The notes under the pieces are model-generated. The model did no database searches, had not been told where the DNA came from, and saw nothing but the letters and a program-made list of their open reading frames with translations. This document shows, piece after piece, positions 8,862 to 17,838 of a DNA stretch of 25,150 nt; the first letter of the stretch is position 1; each line of letters starts with the position of its first letter. The position numbers and the translations under genes are program-made. This stretch comes from a virus, in IMG/VR virus record IMGVR_UViG_3300020445_000067, positions 1 through 25,150 of that record; one strand, given 5' to 3'.

Positions 8862-11525
8862 CTAAGGACAATCGATAACAGAAATAACTTTTTCTGCTTC
8901 GAGTTTTTTGACAAGATCTGGATCACTAGAAGACATATATCTAATAATAGGATATATTTTCGCAGATGCTCCAGAACCAAGTGTATCTGAAACAAGAATA
9001 TTCATCATCTCAGTATAACCACTACCAGAATTAGTAATCTTGATATCAGTCAATCTTCCATCAATTATTACAGGTTCAGCAGATGCACCTGATCCTTTAC
9101 CACCACCTGTAAAGATGATTTCTGTACCAGATGAATAATTATTTCCTACATTCTGTATACCAAATCCTTGAAGAACACCATTTATTCCTTTATTACCTGT
9201 ATATACAACAAGAGTAGAATCAGTTTGATTAGTCAAAGTATTAGGATCTTTGACTGCTTCATTACTACTTGGATCTCCAACATCTCCACCACAAGGAGTT
9301 ACAGAAACTATAGGGTTTTCTCTGAATACATATCCATGCTCATTATTGAATGAAACAGCAGATATAGATCCATTATCATCAACAAATGCTGTTCCTTTTA
9401 GATAGTAATCTCGAACTTCCTCATCTGTCTCTGGATTATACATTGGTGTAGATATAAAGGCATCAGGAGCACAATTATTATTAGCACCATTACCATAACC
9501 ACTTCCACCATCATATACTATAGCATCTTGATTTGGATAACCATCCTTATCAATAGGTAGTTCAATCCATGCACCACTACCTTCACCACTAACTTTAGGT
9601 TTATATGTACTACTACCAGCAACTTGGAAGAAATATTGCTGAGATCCACAGGTTCTAACCCATGATCCTATAATATAAGTATTATCCAAATCTGTTACTT
9701 TATGTTTCTTATCTAATGGGAAGTATGATTTTAGTTTTCCTTGAATACCATACTCAGGACCATATCCTGTAACTTGAGTGAATTGGGAAAGAAGTCCTAT
9801 ATCAGATAAAGCTTGAGTTGCTTTGAATGCTGCACTAGGATCAGTTTGTGCTGCTTGTATATTTTGACCCAAATTAGTAATATAATTTTGAACTGCAATT
9901 GATTCTTCTTGTAATCCTCCAAGATCAGATGGAGGTACAACATTTGAGTTCCTTACTGCTCCTTCTAAATCTAATGTTCCATCATCAAATGCAGTAATAA
10001 CTTCTACTGGAAGGAACCCACATAAAGGTTCTCCAATTTGATTCAATCCATCATCAGGATTGATTCCTATTCCAAATGCAGATGCAACAACATCCATTGT
10101 ATTAGTTTTATCCGTTGTTGCTTCATCACATATTGGTGTAGGTCCACCTGCTAACTTAGCAAGTCTATTATCTAAATTAGGATTAGTCTTTATATCAGGA
10201 ATCAATGCTTTAGGTCTTACGTCTCCAGACTTAGTATCATGTAATTTAGATCTAACACATTTTTCTACTCCTGGATTTACACAAGAAAGGATTCCTAATG
10301 CTTGCTTTGCAAATCCCAAAACCTTATTCATAATACCTGTAATAGCCCCTAATGCTCCTCCCAATTTTCCAAGAGCACCCTTTACAGTATTCAGTATACC
10401 ATTAATCTTATCTAAAATACCACCAAATAATTTATCTGCAATAGAAGATAGAAGACAATTTGCATCATTAACAACTTTACCAAGACTTCCAAACAAATCA
10501 TTCAAGATCTTCTTGAACATGTTTGCCAATCCATTTAGTAATCCAGATTGAAATGCACACTTAGCAATACCAAGAACACCATCCAACTCACCTTTCAATG
10601 CATTCAATTCAAATGGATTTGCAGTAGCAGCTGCCTTGTAAATATCAGGAAATGACTCTGCTATCTTTGACTCTGTATATTTCATGATAGCACCCATAGG
10701 AGCCTGCATCATATTACCCATTATATTTGAATAGTTCTGAATCTTATTTGTCATATTCAGAACTTGTCCTGTCTGAGCATTGATCCATCTCTCACCTACT
10801 TGTGTTGCTCCCTCCAAATCTGATACAAACTCAGACATAATAGTAAGCATATGATCCTTTGAAGCTTCAGTAGCACAAACACCATCAGCAATAGCTACTT
10901 TATATGTCTCGTCTTTCTTTTGTGCAACTTGACCCTTACTTGCTCCTGGATCATCTGCTATTATTATACCTTTAGTTTTTCCATCATCAACATTTTCAAA
11001 ATCATCATCAGAATTTTCTCCATTCTCTCCACCTGCTGTATTGAGAGGAGCAACACGAACTGTATCACTATTAGGATCAACAGAATTTACACTCGCTGAC
11101 TTAGCAATAGTTTCTGGTTTTACATGTAATGGTTTTCCATAAAGATTTTCTGGTTTCAGGAATGCTTTTCCTGGAACAGTTTGGAAAGAATCTGCCTTAG
11201 CAACTGCACCTAAACAACCCCAAACAATAGGTATTTGGCATTCATCACCATCCATGAAGAATCCAAGAACCCATTGACCAGGAACTAGCATTGACTTTGT
11301 ACCCTGTCCACTTATTTGAGACTGAGTAGGTGGCATCAAAATCTGAGCCCAAGGTAACTCATCGGGCTTTACACTCTTTCTATCAGAGTGATGCCCGACT
11401 ATTCTTACCTTCACTCTATTAGAGTTTTTAGCGGTATCTACAGATTTTTCAACCTGACCAATCCACCAGTAAAATCGTTCTTTACCAATGAAATTGGGTT
11501 GTACAAAGCTAGTTGATGCGTCCAT
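8862..11525 (-). CDS. 5: Baseplate hub protein, gp5-like OB-fold, no visible lysozyme domain
   Basis: This 887-aa protein is predicted to sit at the centre of the baseplate under the gp27-like ring. Residues about 15-110 match the gp5 N-terminal OB-fold (FYWWIGQVE, VKVRIVGHHSDRK, LPWAQILMPP, LVPGQWVLGFFMDGDECQIP). Residues about 290-420 form a long amphipathic Gly/Leu/Lys-rich helical stretch (e.g. GGILDKINGILNTVKGALG) with several cysteines. The C-terminal third (about 650-885) carries imperfect beta repeats of the type SGSGY ... GSGASA, seen at 745-870 (GKGSGASAEPVIIDGRLTDI). T4 gp5 is 575 aa with a lysozyme between OB-fold and spike; I see no lysozyme motif here. The ATG overlaps the stop of the 88-aa gene (TAATG), implying coupled translation. 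Confidence 0.82.
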   Translation of the reverse strand: MDASTSFVQPNFIGKERFYWWIGQVEKSVDTAKNSNRVKVRIVGHHSDRKSVKPDELPWAQILMPPTQSQISGQGTKSMLVPGQWVLGFFMDGDECQIPIVWGCLGAVAKADSFQTVPGKAFLKPENLYGKPLHVKPETIAKSASVNSVDPNSDTVRVAPLNTAGGENGENSDDDFENVDDGKTKGIIIADDPGASKGQVAQKKDETYKVAIADGVCATEASKDHMLTIMSEFVSDLEGATQVGERWINAQTGQVLNMTNKIQNYSNIMGNMMQAPMGAIMKYTESKIAESFPDIYKAAATANPFELNALKGELDGVLGIAKCAFQSGLLNGLANMFKKILNDLFGSLGKVVNDANCLLSSIADKLFGGILDKINGILNTVKGALGKLGGALGAITGIMNKVLGFAKQALGILSCVNPGVEKCVRSKLHDTKSGDVRPKALIPDIKTNPNLDNRLAKLAGGPTPICDEATTDKTNTMDVVASAFGIGINPDDGLNQIGEPLCGFLPVEVITAFDDGTLDLEGAVRNSNVVPPSDLGGLQEESIAVQNYITNLGQNIQAAQTDPSAAFKATQALSDIGLLSQFTQVTGYGPEYGIQGKLKSYFPLDKKHKVTDLDNTYIIGSWVRTCGSQQYFFQVAGSSTYKPKVSGEGSGAWIELPIDKDGYPNQDAIVYDGGSGYGNGANNNCAPDAFISTPMYNPETDEEVRDYYLKGTAFVDDNGSISAVSFNNEHGYVFRENPIVSVTPCGGDVGDPSSNEAVKDPNTLTNQTDSTLVVYTGNKGINGVLQGFGIQNVGNNYSSGTEIIFTGGGKGSGASAEPVIIDGRLTDIKITNSGSGYTEMMNILVSDTLGSGASAKIYPIIRYMSSSDPDLVKKLEAEKVISVIDCP

Positions 11526-11791
11526 TATTCGTCATATACTCTACATTCAAAGGCATCGGGATGATTATCACAGTAGACCTCTAAGTGTTGATCTTGATGT
11601 CTAGTATGATAATCATTGATAGCACCATCATTTCTATCAACTTCTTCATCCTTATGATATTCATCATAATAAGCATGAGAAGTTTTTAAATCTTCTTCTG
11701 TATACTCAATCATACCATGATTGATATGTTCTTTATGATCCTTTGGATCTATATAGACCTCATGGTCTAAGTCATGTTTCTTTTCAGTCAT
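11525..11791 (-). CDS. Small His- and acid-rich protein between the hub genes, 88 aa
   Basis: The family is not recognised. Eleven of 88 residues are histidine and many are Asp or Glu (for example DHKEHINHGM and NDYHTRHQDQH). The C-terminus YCDNHPDAFECRVYDE holds two cysteines around a histidine, so metal binding is conceivable. There are no membrane segments. Its start overlaps the end of the gp27-like gene by 8 nt, and its stop overlaps the gp5-like start by 1 nt (TAATG), so it is translated with the baseplate hub. It may be a hub assembly factor or minor hub component; this rests on position alone. Strand, spacing and coupling leave little doubt that it is a real gene. Confidence 0.75.
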   Translation of the reverse strand: MTEKKHDLDHEVYIDPKDHKEHINHGMIEYTEEDLKTSHAYYDEYHKDEEVDRNDGAINDYHTRHQDQHLEVYCDNHPDAFECRVYDE

Positions 11792-13151: not shown

Positions 13152-16003
13152 GTTGTTCCGTATAACCCAATACTAATTTCAGCAACTTGATTGGATATGT
13201 TATTAGTGTAATTAGATGCTGATACATTTGATGTTCCACCACTCCCATCAGAACCAGCACCAGGAGTAACAGTAGATGTAACAGGTGTATTACTATCAGT
13301 ACCACCAGCAATTGATGTACCCTCAATTGTTCCTGAAATCATATCAGTTAGTGCTTTAATCTTTTCCTTTTGAGTCAGACCTTTTGCACCCATAATTCCA
13401 CCAAAACTATCTGATTTTCCACCACCCATAGTAATAAGATGTTTATAACCACCTGGAATTGCATTCAATGTCTTATTAGCATCTGCTTCAGAAACATTAC
13501 CTGAATTTGTTTCAGCTTCAATAACTTTGAATGCATGAGCAAGGATATTTTCTTTGATTTTTGATTGAGAGAAATGACTTATTTCATCCTTTCTTGCTCC
13601 ACCCCACCAATTCTTATTGAAATCAATTGTCTTAGTGGAACTATTCATTGTTCCGACTCTCTTATCAGCCATGAACTCTTCGTTCCATATTTCTATATTC
13701 TTTCCGTCCTTAGCTATTTGTAAGAAGTATGCTTCATTACCTGGTCCAGCAAATCTATACTCTTTACGATCACTTCCAATAAATCCTTTTTTAGCAGTCA
13801 TTCCAACACCACCACCTTCATTGAATCTAGGTATACCAAAGTTTAGAGCATTTAGGTTTCTTGGTCCAATTGCTGATACTGCATTTCTATTGAGAACATA
13901 TTCACCACGTTCCAAATATGCTGGAACACTATCACCTGTTGGTTTACCACCAAATATTTGACCACCTCTTTGCATCCCTGCTTGTGCCTCAGCCTCACCA
14001 TATCCGTTACCTTCAGTAGCGAATAATGGAGCACCAGTACCAAATACATCAGCATCACGAATTTCGGGTGGTAATATATTACCAAGAGTTCTTGCTATTC
14101 CACGACCAAGTAATTCTCCACCAATACCACCTGCCATTGCACCAATAAATGATCCAGGACCAGGTAATGCTGCTGATCCAACTGTTGTACCTAAAGCAGA
14201 TCCTAAAACACCACCTATTGCACCAAGAATAGCATTACCTGGAGATGCTTTGAATAAAGCAATTTCAGCAACCGCAGTCAAAGCACCTATAAGAGCATCT
14301 AATCCAGGAACTTTGAATGTCTTTCTTCCTTCTTTTATAGCACCTACTACTGGTTTTGCTTGTGCTCCTGCTTTTGTAACAAGACCTTTTATAGCCTTAC
14401 CAACATCACCAGGTTTCATATTCTTCAAATTCTTTAGCTGTTTGACCATAGTATTGCTTGTCAGCATATCATCTACTTGGGTCAACGCTTTTGATTTGAT
14501 GTTCTCAAATAATTGCATTGGATTTAGATGTTGTAATGCTTCACCAGTTGCAGTCCAAGCTGCTTTACCACCTTTTAGAAGATTACCTGGAGCATTCCAT
14601 AAGAATTTACCTAAACCACTAATTCCTCTACCCATACCACCAAGCATATCACCAGCAGTACCTAAAAGACCTCGACCTAAATTACCACCTTTAGCAAGTA
14701 ATCCTTTCAAACCTTGTGGACCACCTTCCTGAGCAATCTTTAGTGCTTGTGATTGAGTTAATTCTCCAGCAAGTACACGTGCTCTATTTACTCTGGAGAC
14801 GTTATTTCCTTTCAAATTCGACATTACATCGACTGCCCTATTAGGACCAAGCATTCTAGTTGCTTGACCAGTGCTTTCATTGATAAGACTTCCCATTCTA
14901 GCGACTCTACCGCCATTAGGACCACCTGATCTGAACATCCTAGAGAAGTTTATTCCACTTCCTCTAGGAGTAGAGAATCTTGGACTAATTCCTAGTCCAG
15001 GTCCACGTCTACCACCAAGCATATCACCTAATCCACCACCACCTTGATTAGTGACATAAACGTGCATTGGGTTCTGGGCTGTTCCCAGATCCTTACCCAT
15101 TCTACCACCAACAAGACCTCCCATAGACCTTCCAAGTCTACTAAGTCCCTTTATACCAAATATATTACCAATTACTCCAAGAGTATTACCAATACCAGCA
15201 ATAGCAGACCTTGGATTCCTTATAAGATCTGAACCAATCTTTATTGCACCTACACCAGCAATAAGTTGAAGTACACCAGTAAGACCTTTAAGATTTGTAT
15301 TTATCTTACCTTCATCATTAAATATCTTACCTAATGCACTACCAAAGAAATCAATACCCCATGATACTACAGATCCTATTGCTTGAAAAGTTTTACCAAT
15401 AATATTACCCATTCCAGTTATAACTCCTGGAGGTAATTTACCTATTGCTGTTGAAATAGCAGTTATAGCAGAAAAGAATCCATCAAAAACTTTCTTTATT
15501 CCTTGTCCAGAAACTAACTTAGATATAAGAGGTTTAGCAAGAAATGCAGCAGCAAGTGTACCAAAGAAATTCAAAGCTTTGGTAATCCATCCTAATATTC
15601 CTTTAGTACCTTTACTTGTAAGAGATTTTGTAGCATCACCAACACCTTTTAGAATATTAACTTTCTTACTTTCAATCTTACTTTCTCTATCTTTTCTTAG
15701 TTGTGCCTTATGTCTCCTTTCCTCTTTCTTTATTTCCTCTTTTTGAAGTTTACCCTGTGCTCTTGCAAGAGTATTAGTCTGACCCAATGCTACCTTTATA
15801 TCCTTCAATGTGCTATTGATCTCACCAATCTGAGTAACATTATTGAAGAATACCTTTTGCTCAACCTTAGAAAACCCTAACCCATTGCCATTACCATTAT
15901 TAATTGAAAAATCAGCACCAATCTTCTTACTACCACCAAAACTGACGTTACCAGTTGGATTGATAGTTATATTGGCGGTAGTTAGATCAATTTGCTGTGG
16001 CAT
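13148..16003 (-). CDS. Tail tape measure protein (functional counterpart of T4 gp29)
   Basis: This 951-aa protein probably sets tail length and fills the tube before injection. Residues about 60-118 form a highly charged helix or coiled coil (QKEEIKKEERRHKAQLRKDR). Hydrophobic helices follow at about 136-165 (GWITKALNFFGTLAAAFLAK), with more through 270, then a Gly/Arg-rich flexible region around 320-375. Residues about 570-640 form an Ala/Gly hydrophobic stretch that could enter the host membrane. The segment at 679-732 (GGKPTGDSVPAYLERGEYVL, later IPRFNEGG) is a signature of many tape measure proteins. It follows the gp26/frameshift pair with a TAATG overlap, exactly where tape measure genes follow their chaperones. 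T4 gp29 is shorter (590 aa); a longer tape would suggest a longer tail, though extra domains could also explain it. Confidence 0.82.
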   Translation of the reverse strand: MPQQIDLTTANITINPTGNVSFGGSKKIGADFSINNGNGNGLGFSKVEQKVFFNNVTQIGEINSTLKDIKVALGQTNTLARAQGKLQKEEIKKEERRHKAQLRKDRESKIESKKVNILKGVGDATKSLTSKGTKGILGWITKALNFFGTLAAAFLAKPLISKLVSGQGIKKVFDGFFSAITAISTAIGKLPPGVITGMGNIIGKTFQAIGSVVSWGIDFFGSALGKIFNDEGKINTNLKGLTGVLQLIAGVGAIKIGSDLIRNPRSAIAGIGNTLGVIGNIFGIKGLSRLGRSMGGLVGGRMGKDLGTAQNPMHVYVTNQGGGGLGDMLGGRRGPGLGISPRFSTPRGSGINFSRMFRSGGPNGGRVARMGSLINESTGQATRMLGPNRAVDVMSNLKGNNVSRVNRARVLAGELTQSQALKIAQEGGPQGLKGLLAKGGNLGRGLLGTAGDMLGGMGRGISGLGKFLWNAPGNLLKGGKAAWTATGEALQHLNPMQLFENIKSKALTQVDDMLTSNTMVKQLKNLKNMKPGDVGKAIKGLVTKAGAQAKPVVGAIKEGRKTFKVPGLDALIGALTAVAEIALFKASPGNAILGAIGGVLGSALGTTVGSAALPGPGSFIGAMAGGIGGELLGRGIARTLGNILPPEIRDADVFGTGAPLFATEGNGYGEAEAQAGMQRGGQIFGGKPTGDSVPAYLERGEYVLNRNAVSAIGPRNLNALNFGIPRFNEGGGVGMTAKKGFIGSDRKEYRFAGPGNEAYFLQIAKDGKNIEIWNEEFMADKRVGTMNSSTKTIDFNKNWWGGARKDEISHFSQSKIKENILAHAFKVIEAETNSGNVSEADANKTLNAIPGGYKHLITMGGGKSDSFGGIMGAKGLTQKEKIKALTDMISGTIEGTSIAGGTDSNTPVTSTVTPGAGSDGSGGTSNVSASNYTNNISNQVAEISIGLYGTT

Positions 16004-16194
16004 TAGCTATGTCCTGCTTTTTGTTCTGCTGCTTTTTTGTTTTCTGACTTGATGTGATCGGCTAGCATTTGCACGTACACATCCCTTTCCCACGGAATTA
16101 GGTTTTCAATTTCAGTTAGACTCCATTTATGATGTTGGATCATTGAGAAATTTGTTTCGTACCATGATTCAAGAGATATGTATCCCATAATCAC
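16003..16194 (-). CDS. Tape measure chaperone extension (lambda T-like reading frame, at the T4 gene 51 position)
   Basis: A 63-aa frame from GTG at 16194 to TAA at 16005-16003, with a possible internal ATG at 16188. It is Trp- and Glu-rich (WYETNFSMIQHHKWSLTEI, ENLIPWERDVYVQML). The IPWERDVYVQML motif resembles the short downstream chaperone frames of tail assembly genes (lambda T, P2 E'). T4 gene 51 sits at this place but is much longer (about 249 aa), so I do not assign that symbol. Neither GTG nor ATG has a well-spaced ribosome binding site. The frame is entered precisely by a -1 slip at the heptamer ending gp26, so it is more likely expressed as the C-terminus of a fusion than alone. Confidence 0.72.
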   Translation of the reverse strand: MIMGYISLESWYETNFSMIQHHKWSLTEIENLIPWERDVYVQMLADHIKSENKKAAEQKAGHS

Positions 16195-16898
16195 CCGAAA
16201 AAATCACCTAACCCTGTAAGAGTTACATCACTAATAACATTTGTATTAGGATTTGTTATTTGAATTGTATGCTCAAGTCTTGGCATAGTTTCAAAAAACT
16301 TTTGTATTTCCTTGAACTGTTCAGATGTCATAGATTCTAAGAAATCTTTTAGTTCTTTTGGAGTACAATCCTTTGCTTCATGTACCTCATCTCCTTCAAT
16401 AATTTTATCAATACATTTAGCAACTACAGAAAAAGGATCTTGTTCTGCTTGTTTGAAATTAGCTTCAATGAATGCATCCATACTAGGATACTTCATATAA
16501 AGAGTAATTCCTTTTCCTAAATCTATTTCAGGATTATGTCCTTCAGGGAAGGTTACTTGAACTTCTTCTACATTTATTGATGTAGAAACAGTTGACTTAT
16601 CATCATCTGGACAAGGTATTGTAAGATCAATTACTTCTCCTACAGATTTTCCTCTAATATTGAGGAAGATATATTCTATGTCAAAAGAAGGTAAAGATTC
16701 AATCTTTATACCTCTTGTGGCAATGCAGTTTTTGATAATCGATTTAATTGCTTGTGCAATATCTTTCTCATTTTCAGACTCCGATGCTAACATAAGAACC
16801 TTTTCTTCTTTTACAAGAAATGGTCTATAACGTAATGGTTTACCAGAAGAAGGTAATGTTATCTCATATGTCGGAGCAGCAATTTTTGGTAATGGCAT
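16191..16898 (-). CDS. 26: gp26-like baseplate/tail assembly protein
   Basis: This 235-aa protein (T4 gp26 has 208) matches the T4 base plate protein family: the N-terminus PAPTYE-type opening is seen as IAAPTYEITLPSSGKPLRYR followed by PFLVKEEKVLMLASE. The central part, FDIEYIFLNIRGKSVGEVID, and the helical C-terminal half (FLESMTSEQFKEIQKFFETM) are also typical. gp26 is listed as a baseplate hub component, but this fold and genome place also fit a tail assembly chaperone acting on the tape measure protein two genes on. Its last codons contain a canonical -1 slippery heptamer. It is the first gene of the hub operon and follows two CTAAATA late elements. Confidence 0.85.
   Translation of the reverse strand: MPLPKIAAPTYEITLPSSGKPLRYRPFLVKEEKVLMLASESENEKDIAQAIKSIIKNCIATRGIKIESLPSFDIEYIFLNIRGKSVGEVIDLTIPCPDDDKSTVSTSINVEEVQVTFPEGHNPEIDLGKGITLYMKYPSMDAFIEANFKQAEQDPFSVVAKCIDKIIEGDEVHEAKDCTPKELKDFLESMTSEQFKEIQKFFETMPRLEHTIQITNPNTNVISDVTLTGLGDFFG
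16197..16203 (-). promoter_or_regulatory. Programmed -1 ribosomal frameshift site, T TTT TTC
   Basis: On the minus strand the end of gp26 reads GAT TTT TTC GGG TGA. The bases at 16203-16197 form T TTT TTC, an X XXY YYZ heptamer in the correct phase. After a -1 slip the next codons are CGG GTG ATT ATG GGA, the frame of the 63-aa ORF. The gp26 stop lies 3 nt downstream of the heptamer. An AGGTGA run lies directly 5' of it. I could not identify a convincing downstream pseudoknot by eye. Confidence 0.7.
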
Positions 16899-16944: not shown

Positions 16945-17838
16945 TTATCCGTGCTTTACTGGATCATATTCTTCACCAACACCATCTCCTTGACTACTGG
17001 TAACAACAATTTTATCAGATCCACCTGATCCATCACCATTACCTTCTGTTTCAGCAGCAGTGCTATTTGCTAAATCACTAGCTTTCTTAGAACCTAATCC
17101 GTCAGTCCATCCAGTTACTAAATTGGTTAGAGTTGCACCAGTTTTAAATGCACTAAATGGTTTTCTAGCTCTTCTGAGGAAATCACTATCATTAGCAGAT
17201 TTACCTCCAAATAATCCACCTAGACCTGCTACTTGTTCTCCTGCCTGACCACCATAAACATTTTCAAATGTCTCATATGCAAAGTTTACAGTAAATTCTA
17301 ATTGATTATTATTTGATGAAGATGTCAAAGATAAATCTGATAAATTTATAGGAAAGGCATTATATACCAAACAAGTCATGGAGGACTCACCATCCCTTTC
17401 AAACTTCTTCAAAATAATCTTTGGATCAATATAAGAATTATACCAGTTCATTCTTATATCTTTTCTATTAGTTGGACCACCACCTCTACGAACACCAGTC
17501 TTCTCATACCAATCATTGAATATATCATGAACTGCCATATCACCTGTTAGAAGAAATGTCATAGCAAATTCATTGAACATTACGCTAGTAACATATTTTC
17601 TACTCAATCCTATTCCCATTTCACCACGCATTTCTCCTGTGGTAAAACTTCTACCAGGAAATTGTATAGATTGAATTAGAAATCTTGAATGCTCATTTAG
17701 TTGTCTTAGAGTGGAATAATCACCATTAATCCATCCAGGAGATCCACCAATACCACCTCCAGTGAATATTGCTTCGTATCTATTAGAGGAAGCTGGACCT
17801 GATGCCAGCAACTTATTTACACTTTCATATATTCCCAT
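16945..17838 (-). CDS. 54: Baseplate tail-tube initiator, gp54-like (gp19 tail-tube fold)
   Basis: This 297-aa protein (T4 gp54 has 320) shows the tail-tube fold pattern: SRFLIQSIQFPGRSFTTGE, KYVTSVMFNEFAMTFLLTGD, FNDWYE, then PINLSDLSLTSSSNNNQLEF leading into TVNFAYE. The tube protein gp19 is much shorter (about 163 aa), and this gene lies opposite gp48, its partner at the end of the tube, so the initiator gp54 fits best. The C-terminal 100 residues (after FENVYGG) are Gly/Ser/Ala-rich and look disordered. It is transcribed divergently from gp4 from its own CTAAATA element. A second tube-like paralogue cannot be excluded. Confidence 0.72.
   Translation of the reverse strand: MGIYESVNKLLASGPASSNRYEAIFTGGGIGGSPGWINGDYSTLRQLNEHSRFLIQSIQFPGRSFTTGEMRGEMGIGLSRKYVTSVMFNEFAMTFLLTGDMAVHDIFNDWYEKTGVRRGGGPTNRKDIRMNWYNSYIDPKIILKKFERDGESSMTCLVYNAFPINLSDLSLTSSSNNNQLEFTVNFAYETFENVYGGQAGEQVAGLGGLFGGKSANDSDFLRRARKPFSAFKTGATLTNLVTGWTDGLGSKKASDLANSTAAETEGNGDGSGGSDKIVVTSSQGDGVGEEYDPVKHG

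Follow-up and report, generated by a model that had tools for sequence, protein, structure and literature searches.

In phage lambda many short and few long tail assembly chaperones (TACs) sit on the tape measure protein, the tail of the long form recruiting the tube, and according to a 2016 review all long-tailed phages 'except T4' conserve frameshifting of this G-T type (PMC5009743). Baseplate hub assembly in T4 requires gp51, a protein that the particle does not contain and that has been called 'of unknown function' (PMC3004832). The PRFect paper cites Vladimirov, Gautam & Davidson for T4-like phages in which two genes, one short and one long, replace the frameshift (PMC10274946), and a paper on phage Adele credits the same authors (Virology 2022;566:9-15) with poly-T slippery sequences in the genes of T4-like phages for the zero-frame chaperone, TAC-N (PMC12846349). 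Here we describe the gp26 gene and its overlapping -1 frame in a marine phage related to T4, IMGVR_UViG_3300020445_000067, a 25,150-base IMG/VR virus record that was analysed whole (the window) and may be a genome fragment. Frameshifting in T4-like chaperone genes has already been described in outline, and this locus is one more member. An earlier sequence-only reading of the window knew of no frameshift in T4-type phages; in this it was mistaken, one having been reported according to the citing papers (PMC10274946, PMC12846349). Our literature search, which lay outside the text of the 2022 Virology paper, found no account joining frameshift, gp51 and cyanophage in the relevant sense. The abstract of that paper is said to report that several T4-like groups keep frameshifting and that T4 uses separate genes 26 and 51. 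Beyond what the citing papers relate, we add breadth, statistics of codon use, a Shine-Dalgarno-like element upstream of the slip site and, for the window's clade, an ATG that may serve as an extra start.

With a probability of about 0.9, we read gp26 of this phage as the short chaperone, to which a -1 slip on T TTT TTC would add the gp51 domain and so yield a long form. The 235-residue protein is a T4-type gp26 (PF12322, E 5e-73; phrog_150, E 8e-81), and its gene ends, on the minus strand, in GGT GAT TTT TTC GGG TGA. The sequence-only reading had placed an in-phase T TTT TTC at 16203-16197, and coordinates, sequence and phase were all correct, as was its claim that a -1 slip enters the small frame: reading becomes TTT TTT CGG GTG ATT ATG GGA and continues into a frame of 63/64 codons, with a predicted fusion junction of ...GDFF-RVIMGYISLESW... 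The small frame belongs to phrog_634, the 'baseplate hub assembly catalyst' gp51 family (E 7e-28). Its TAA (16005-16003) overlaps the ATG of a 951-residue gene as TAATG, so that the pair sits directly upstream of a probable tape measure gene, as in the lambda G/GT type. That this gene follows at once had also been proposed and holds; its identity as the tape measure, for which there are weak matches to tape-measure PHROGs (E 3e-4 to 2e-3), is likely but not proven from position and size.

The presence of a heptamer was dropped as evidence in itself, TTTTTTC occurring 6 times in the window against 9.0 expected from shuffling, and therefore only its position, phase and conservation count. The gp26 proteins of 242 loci, drawn from IMG/VR and from phage records, fell into 93 clusters at 80% identity, which form 31 groups by single linkage at 50% identity. 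T TTT TTN is kept in phase at the end of gp26 in 90 of the 93, so the alignment of junctions proposed in the sequence-only reading does find a slippery heptamer at the same place. The last codon is TTC in 52 clusters, TTT in 33, TTA in four and TTG in one, variants that are all compatible with slipping. Phe-Phe near the end of gp26 is itself almost invariant, and the first Phe codon is TTT in every one of the 90. The residue before it varies (D, S, N, A, T, R, H), yet its codon always ends in T: NNT TTT stands at the site in 90/90 clusters against about 36/90 predicted by the encoded residues together with codon usage pooled over these genes, a comparison that counts related clusters as independent. 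In the clusters L112, L057, L126, L152 and L089 the second Phe has become Leu (TTT TTA or TTT TTG), a replacement that alters the protein and keeps the slippery property.

The -1 frame is open in all 90 clusters and 57-73 amino acids long in the 86 that are complete, the others being cut by a contig end, whereas the +1 frame, taken as a control, closes after a median of 5 codons. Directly after the slip site, and before any start codon, the extension opens with a conserved R-[LIV]-x-L-S-H-D-S-L. Substitutions between close relatives fall on codon positions 1:2:3 as 797:402:1153. The -1 frame is thus coding up to the slip site and under selection at the protein level. ATG is absent before codon 13 in 68 of 89 clusters, and 54 of the 89 lack GTG and TTG there as well; in these start-less lineages the extension peptide is reachable only by frameshifting or by an exotic start. 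This absence of a separate start is a property of the family, since in the clade of the window codon 3 is an ATG. Among cultured members of the start-less lineages are Aeromonas phage Aeh1 and Citrobacter phage Ci1, in which the extension is unannotated or only partly covered by annotation, and the GenBank records of S-BM3, S-CAM1, S-CAM4, ACG-2014b and ACG-2014i carry no annotated feature over it. Hundreds of cyanophage records would be incompletely annotated, with gp51 separate or missing where the fusion should stand.

Comparison with T4 bears on what the two products may do. T4 gp26 (208 amino acids) and gp51 (249 amino acids) both match PF12322 and phrog_150, and by these profile matches they are paralogous; the phrog_634 domain is found at the C-terminus of gp51 and not in gp26. 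A profile of the extension aligns to residues 206-244 of T4 gp51 (E 3.9e-5) with no match to T4 gp26, and by this alignment the extension is homologous to the gp51 C-terminus. Taken together, the paralogy and the shared C-terminus suggest that one frameshifted gene here does the work of T4's two, which lie on opposite strands; the 25,150 bases, possibly a fragment of the genome, hold a single PF12322 match. The breadth of the cluster survey favours regarding T4 itself as the exception, its marine and several of its terrestrial relatives keeping what would be the ancestral frameshift.

An AlphaFold2 model of gp26, built with 60 family members, reached a predicted local distance difference test (pLDDT) score of 91.7. 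Among the PDB chains re-aligned with it by VIA-align, the top rows were 3FGX (Z 8.2), 2OB9 (Z 7.8) and 3KLU (Z 7.4), followed by a next value of 2.6; all three cover gp26 residues 1-96, with Z scores near the level at which the tool warns of a merely common arrangement. Foldseek alone gave 2OB9 at probability 0.69 and E about 1. We take 3KLU and 3FGX to be phage tail assembly chaperones or relatives of these. A search of solved structures by sequence with the gp26 and extension profiles returned nothing meaningful and did not recover these three chaperone structures. The model supports a known tail assembly chaperone fold for gp26. The extension was modelled as a three-helix peptide, for which a Foldseek search returned no meaningful solved relative. 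Heptamer conservation, a coding -1 frame that mostly has no start, the modelled chaperone fold and the gp51 C-terminal domain all bear out the proposal in the sequence-only reading that gp26 and its fusion are the tape measure chaperones.

About 15 to 9 nucleotides upstream of the heptamer, members throughout the family carry a stretch resembling a Shine-Dalgarno sequence (GAGGG, AAGGG or AGAGG), with a mean pairing of -5.2 kcal/mol against -4.1 +/- 0.2 for synonymous controls. A downstream stem-loop or pseudoknot was rejected as a general stimulator, the family mean z being -1.10 against -0.59 in the gene body, which makes it at most a lineage-specific feature. Very stable RNA folds (z below -4) do occur just downstream of the heptamer in a few related clusters (L227, L033 and L209), possibly as a lineage-specific stimulator.

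Several observations weigh against a frameshifted chaperone pair in this phage. The window's own upstream element is weak (ACAGGGTT, -3.8 kcal/mol), and RNA structure sought downstream in the window was not found (z +0.26). The Z scores of the fold sit close to the warning level already given. The clusters share ancestry, so that the contrast of 90 with 36 is inflated and overstates independence, although 31 groups still remain at 50% single linkage. Three outlying clusters lack the heptamer (Ackermannviridae L086 and the Vibrio phages K475 and D504); in K475 and D504 a TAATG start suggests separate genes. All three of these junctions (L086, L087 and L088) keep a gp51-like frame after gp26; at that of L086 a clear start and a canonical heptamer are both missing. 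Finally, three codons into the extension lies an ATG that is in frame and has a passable Shine-Dalgarno sequence, and the domain could also be made separately. Here the sequence-only reading, which held that the small frame lacks a well-placed ribosome binding site, stands only in part: in the window GGGTGA precedes ATG 16188 by 2 nucleotides and its anti-Shine-Dalgarno pairing amounts to -5.8 kcal/mol.

If that ATG were used in place of the slip, the small frame would be made by termination-reinitiation (GGGTGATTATG) and there would be two separate proteins, as many cyanophage GenBank records, which annotate gp26 and gp51 as separate genes, imply. The strength of the window's site and the retention of ATG at extension codon 3 across its clade (L001, L004, L008) speak for this. 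The sites in sister loci of the clade are, however, weak (-2.9 to -3.9 kcal/mol); the Met aligns with Leu elsewhere in extensions of equal length and so need not be a start; the heptamer is kept in the 54 clusters without any start codon there; and in T4 the domain is found only fused, within gp51. We judge two separate proteins very unlikely. In the window's clade both routes might operate, giving the frameshifted fusion together with a free C-terminal domain by reinitiation, since heptamer and ATG are both retained in the window and L001-L008; the weakness of the sister sites counts against this too. We know of no tail chaperone system that needs a free C-terminal domain, and we consider this combination unlikely. 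As the heptamer and frame are kept in the window's clade exactly as in its start-less relatives, the fusion stays our preferred product there. A broader proposal would have slippage tuned throughout the family by the internal Shine-Dalgarno-like element about 8 nucleotides upstream and not by downstream RNA structure, and the window's clade making three products, namely the short chaperone, the frameshifted long form and a free C-terminal domain from ATG 16188; this we put forward as a doubtful possibility.

The fusion could also arise by transcriptional slippage on the T run, which reaches 7-8 consecutive T in several relatives, and not by ribosomal frameshifting. In the window and most TTC clusters, however, the run is only 6 long and ends in C, the X XXY YYZ phase is always exact, TTA and TTG variants occur, and slippage of this kind would give no function to a Shine-Dalgarno-like element spaced to suit the ribosome; we regard this as highly improbable. 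The near invariance of Phe-Phe could in principle make the heptamer a by-product of protein conservation, with gp51 an ordinary overlapping gene. This is already contradicted, and we give it almost no credence: both codons preceding the final Z end in T without exception (90/90 against 36 expected), the Phe-Leu variants TTT TTA and TTT TTG keep the slippery property, and conservation of the -1 peptide already holds ahead of any start codon.

We return to ribosomal frameshifting between gp26 and the gp51 domain. With a chaperone fold and a gp51-type extension, a lambda-like mechanism is most likely; we infer that slippage occurs in this phage, and infer likewise its efficiency and the binding partners. 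The majority of ribosomes would stop at the TGA (16193-16191) and release the short form, TAC-N, and a minority would slip by -1 on T TTT TTC, where tRNA-Phe would re-pair from TTT TTC to TTT TTT. The slip would add 64 residues, and the resulting long form, TAC-NC, of roughly 300 amino acids would have the gp51 domain as its C-terminal part. If lambda G/GT is a guide, the tape measure protein would be coated by many copies of the short form and few of the long, tail tube subunits would be recruited by the C-terminal part of the latter, and neither form would stay in the virion. The features concerned are collected in Table 1.

Table 1. Features of the gp26 region of the window and what each assignment draws on.
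Feature	Position	Strand	Basis
gp26 / TAC-N, zero-frame tail assembly chaperone (putative), 235 amino acids	16191..16898	minus	PF12322 T4_baseplate, phrog_150; modelled chaperone fold, residues 1-96
Slippery heptamer T TTT TTC (candidate), X XXY YYZ phase, zero-frame codons GAT TTT TTC	16197..16203	minus	sequence, conservation, third-position constraint
Zero-frame stop TGA, two codons past the slip site	16191..16193	minus	sequence
-1 frame extension (TAC-C, T4 gp51 C-terminal domain, phrog_634), 64 codons + stop	16003..16197	minus	sequence, profile match, conservation
Probable tape measure gene, 951 amino acids	13148..16003	minus	position, size, weak tape-measure PHROG matches
Tail-tube-type protein (gp54/gp19-like), 297 amino acids, upstream of gp26	16945..17838	minus	family match; same neighbour in other T4-type phages
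AGGG at the place of the conserved upstream Shine-Dalgarno-like stimulator	16212..16215	minus	weak here, -3.8 kcal/mol
Alternative small-frame ATG, preceded by GGGTGA (16196-16191); possible reinitiation product	16186..16188	minus	sequence; Met kept in the window's clade

Elsewhere in the window, an 88-residue protein encoded at 11525-11791 (minus strand) carries, towards its C-terminus, a CP12-like motif (PF02672, E 1.6e-7, confined to positions 46-70). Its gene sits within the tail gene cluster and overlaps both neighbours, and a CP12-like motif in this setting suggests a cyanobacterial host. The beta-rich domain of gp26 (residues 97-235) has Cys pairs in many relatives.

A Pfam scan of the extension gave weak matches only, among them DUF6760 in 4 of 52 members. 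DUF6760 (PF20546) resembles the gp51 extension (HWS..EIL.ME..ER) and follows a short chaperone-like gene in the -1 frame in operons like those of contractile injection systems (L253 about 1470-1500, L252 811-830, and L261). Sheath- and tube-like genes adjoin the chaperone-like gene in L252. The L253 junction has an in-phase G GGA AAG, which is the slippery sequence of lambda; the L252 and L261 junctions have only G- or C-runs, and in L259 and L260 the chaperone-like part and DUF6760 are fused in frame. Frameshifted tail chaperones may, by these junctions, exist outside phages.

Among known systems, lambda gpG/gpGT differs from the pair described here in having no sequence homology with it and in slipping on G GGA AAG where the window has T TTT TTC. 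Over its N-terminal 85-95 residues the gp26 model can be superposed on the HK97 tail assembly chaperone (2OB9), YqbN (3KLU) and RBSTP2171 (3FGX) at a sequence identity of 6-12%; gp26 is longer than these, its residues 97-235 forming the further domain. The TAC of the Vandenendeviridae (phage Adele, PMC12846349) is likened here to the window's pair by frame and motif: its -1 frame is likewise conserved, and its TAC-N gene has GTTTTT near the 3' end. It belongs to another phage family. Closest are T4 genes 26 and 51, which share with this phage the family PF12322/phrog_150 and the C-terminal domain phrog_634; T4 has two genes, 26 for a short and 51 for a long protein, where this phage has one gene with T TTT TTC. 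T4 gp26 and gp51, long puzzling, would then together make up a tail assembly chaperone pair of the ordinary kind.

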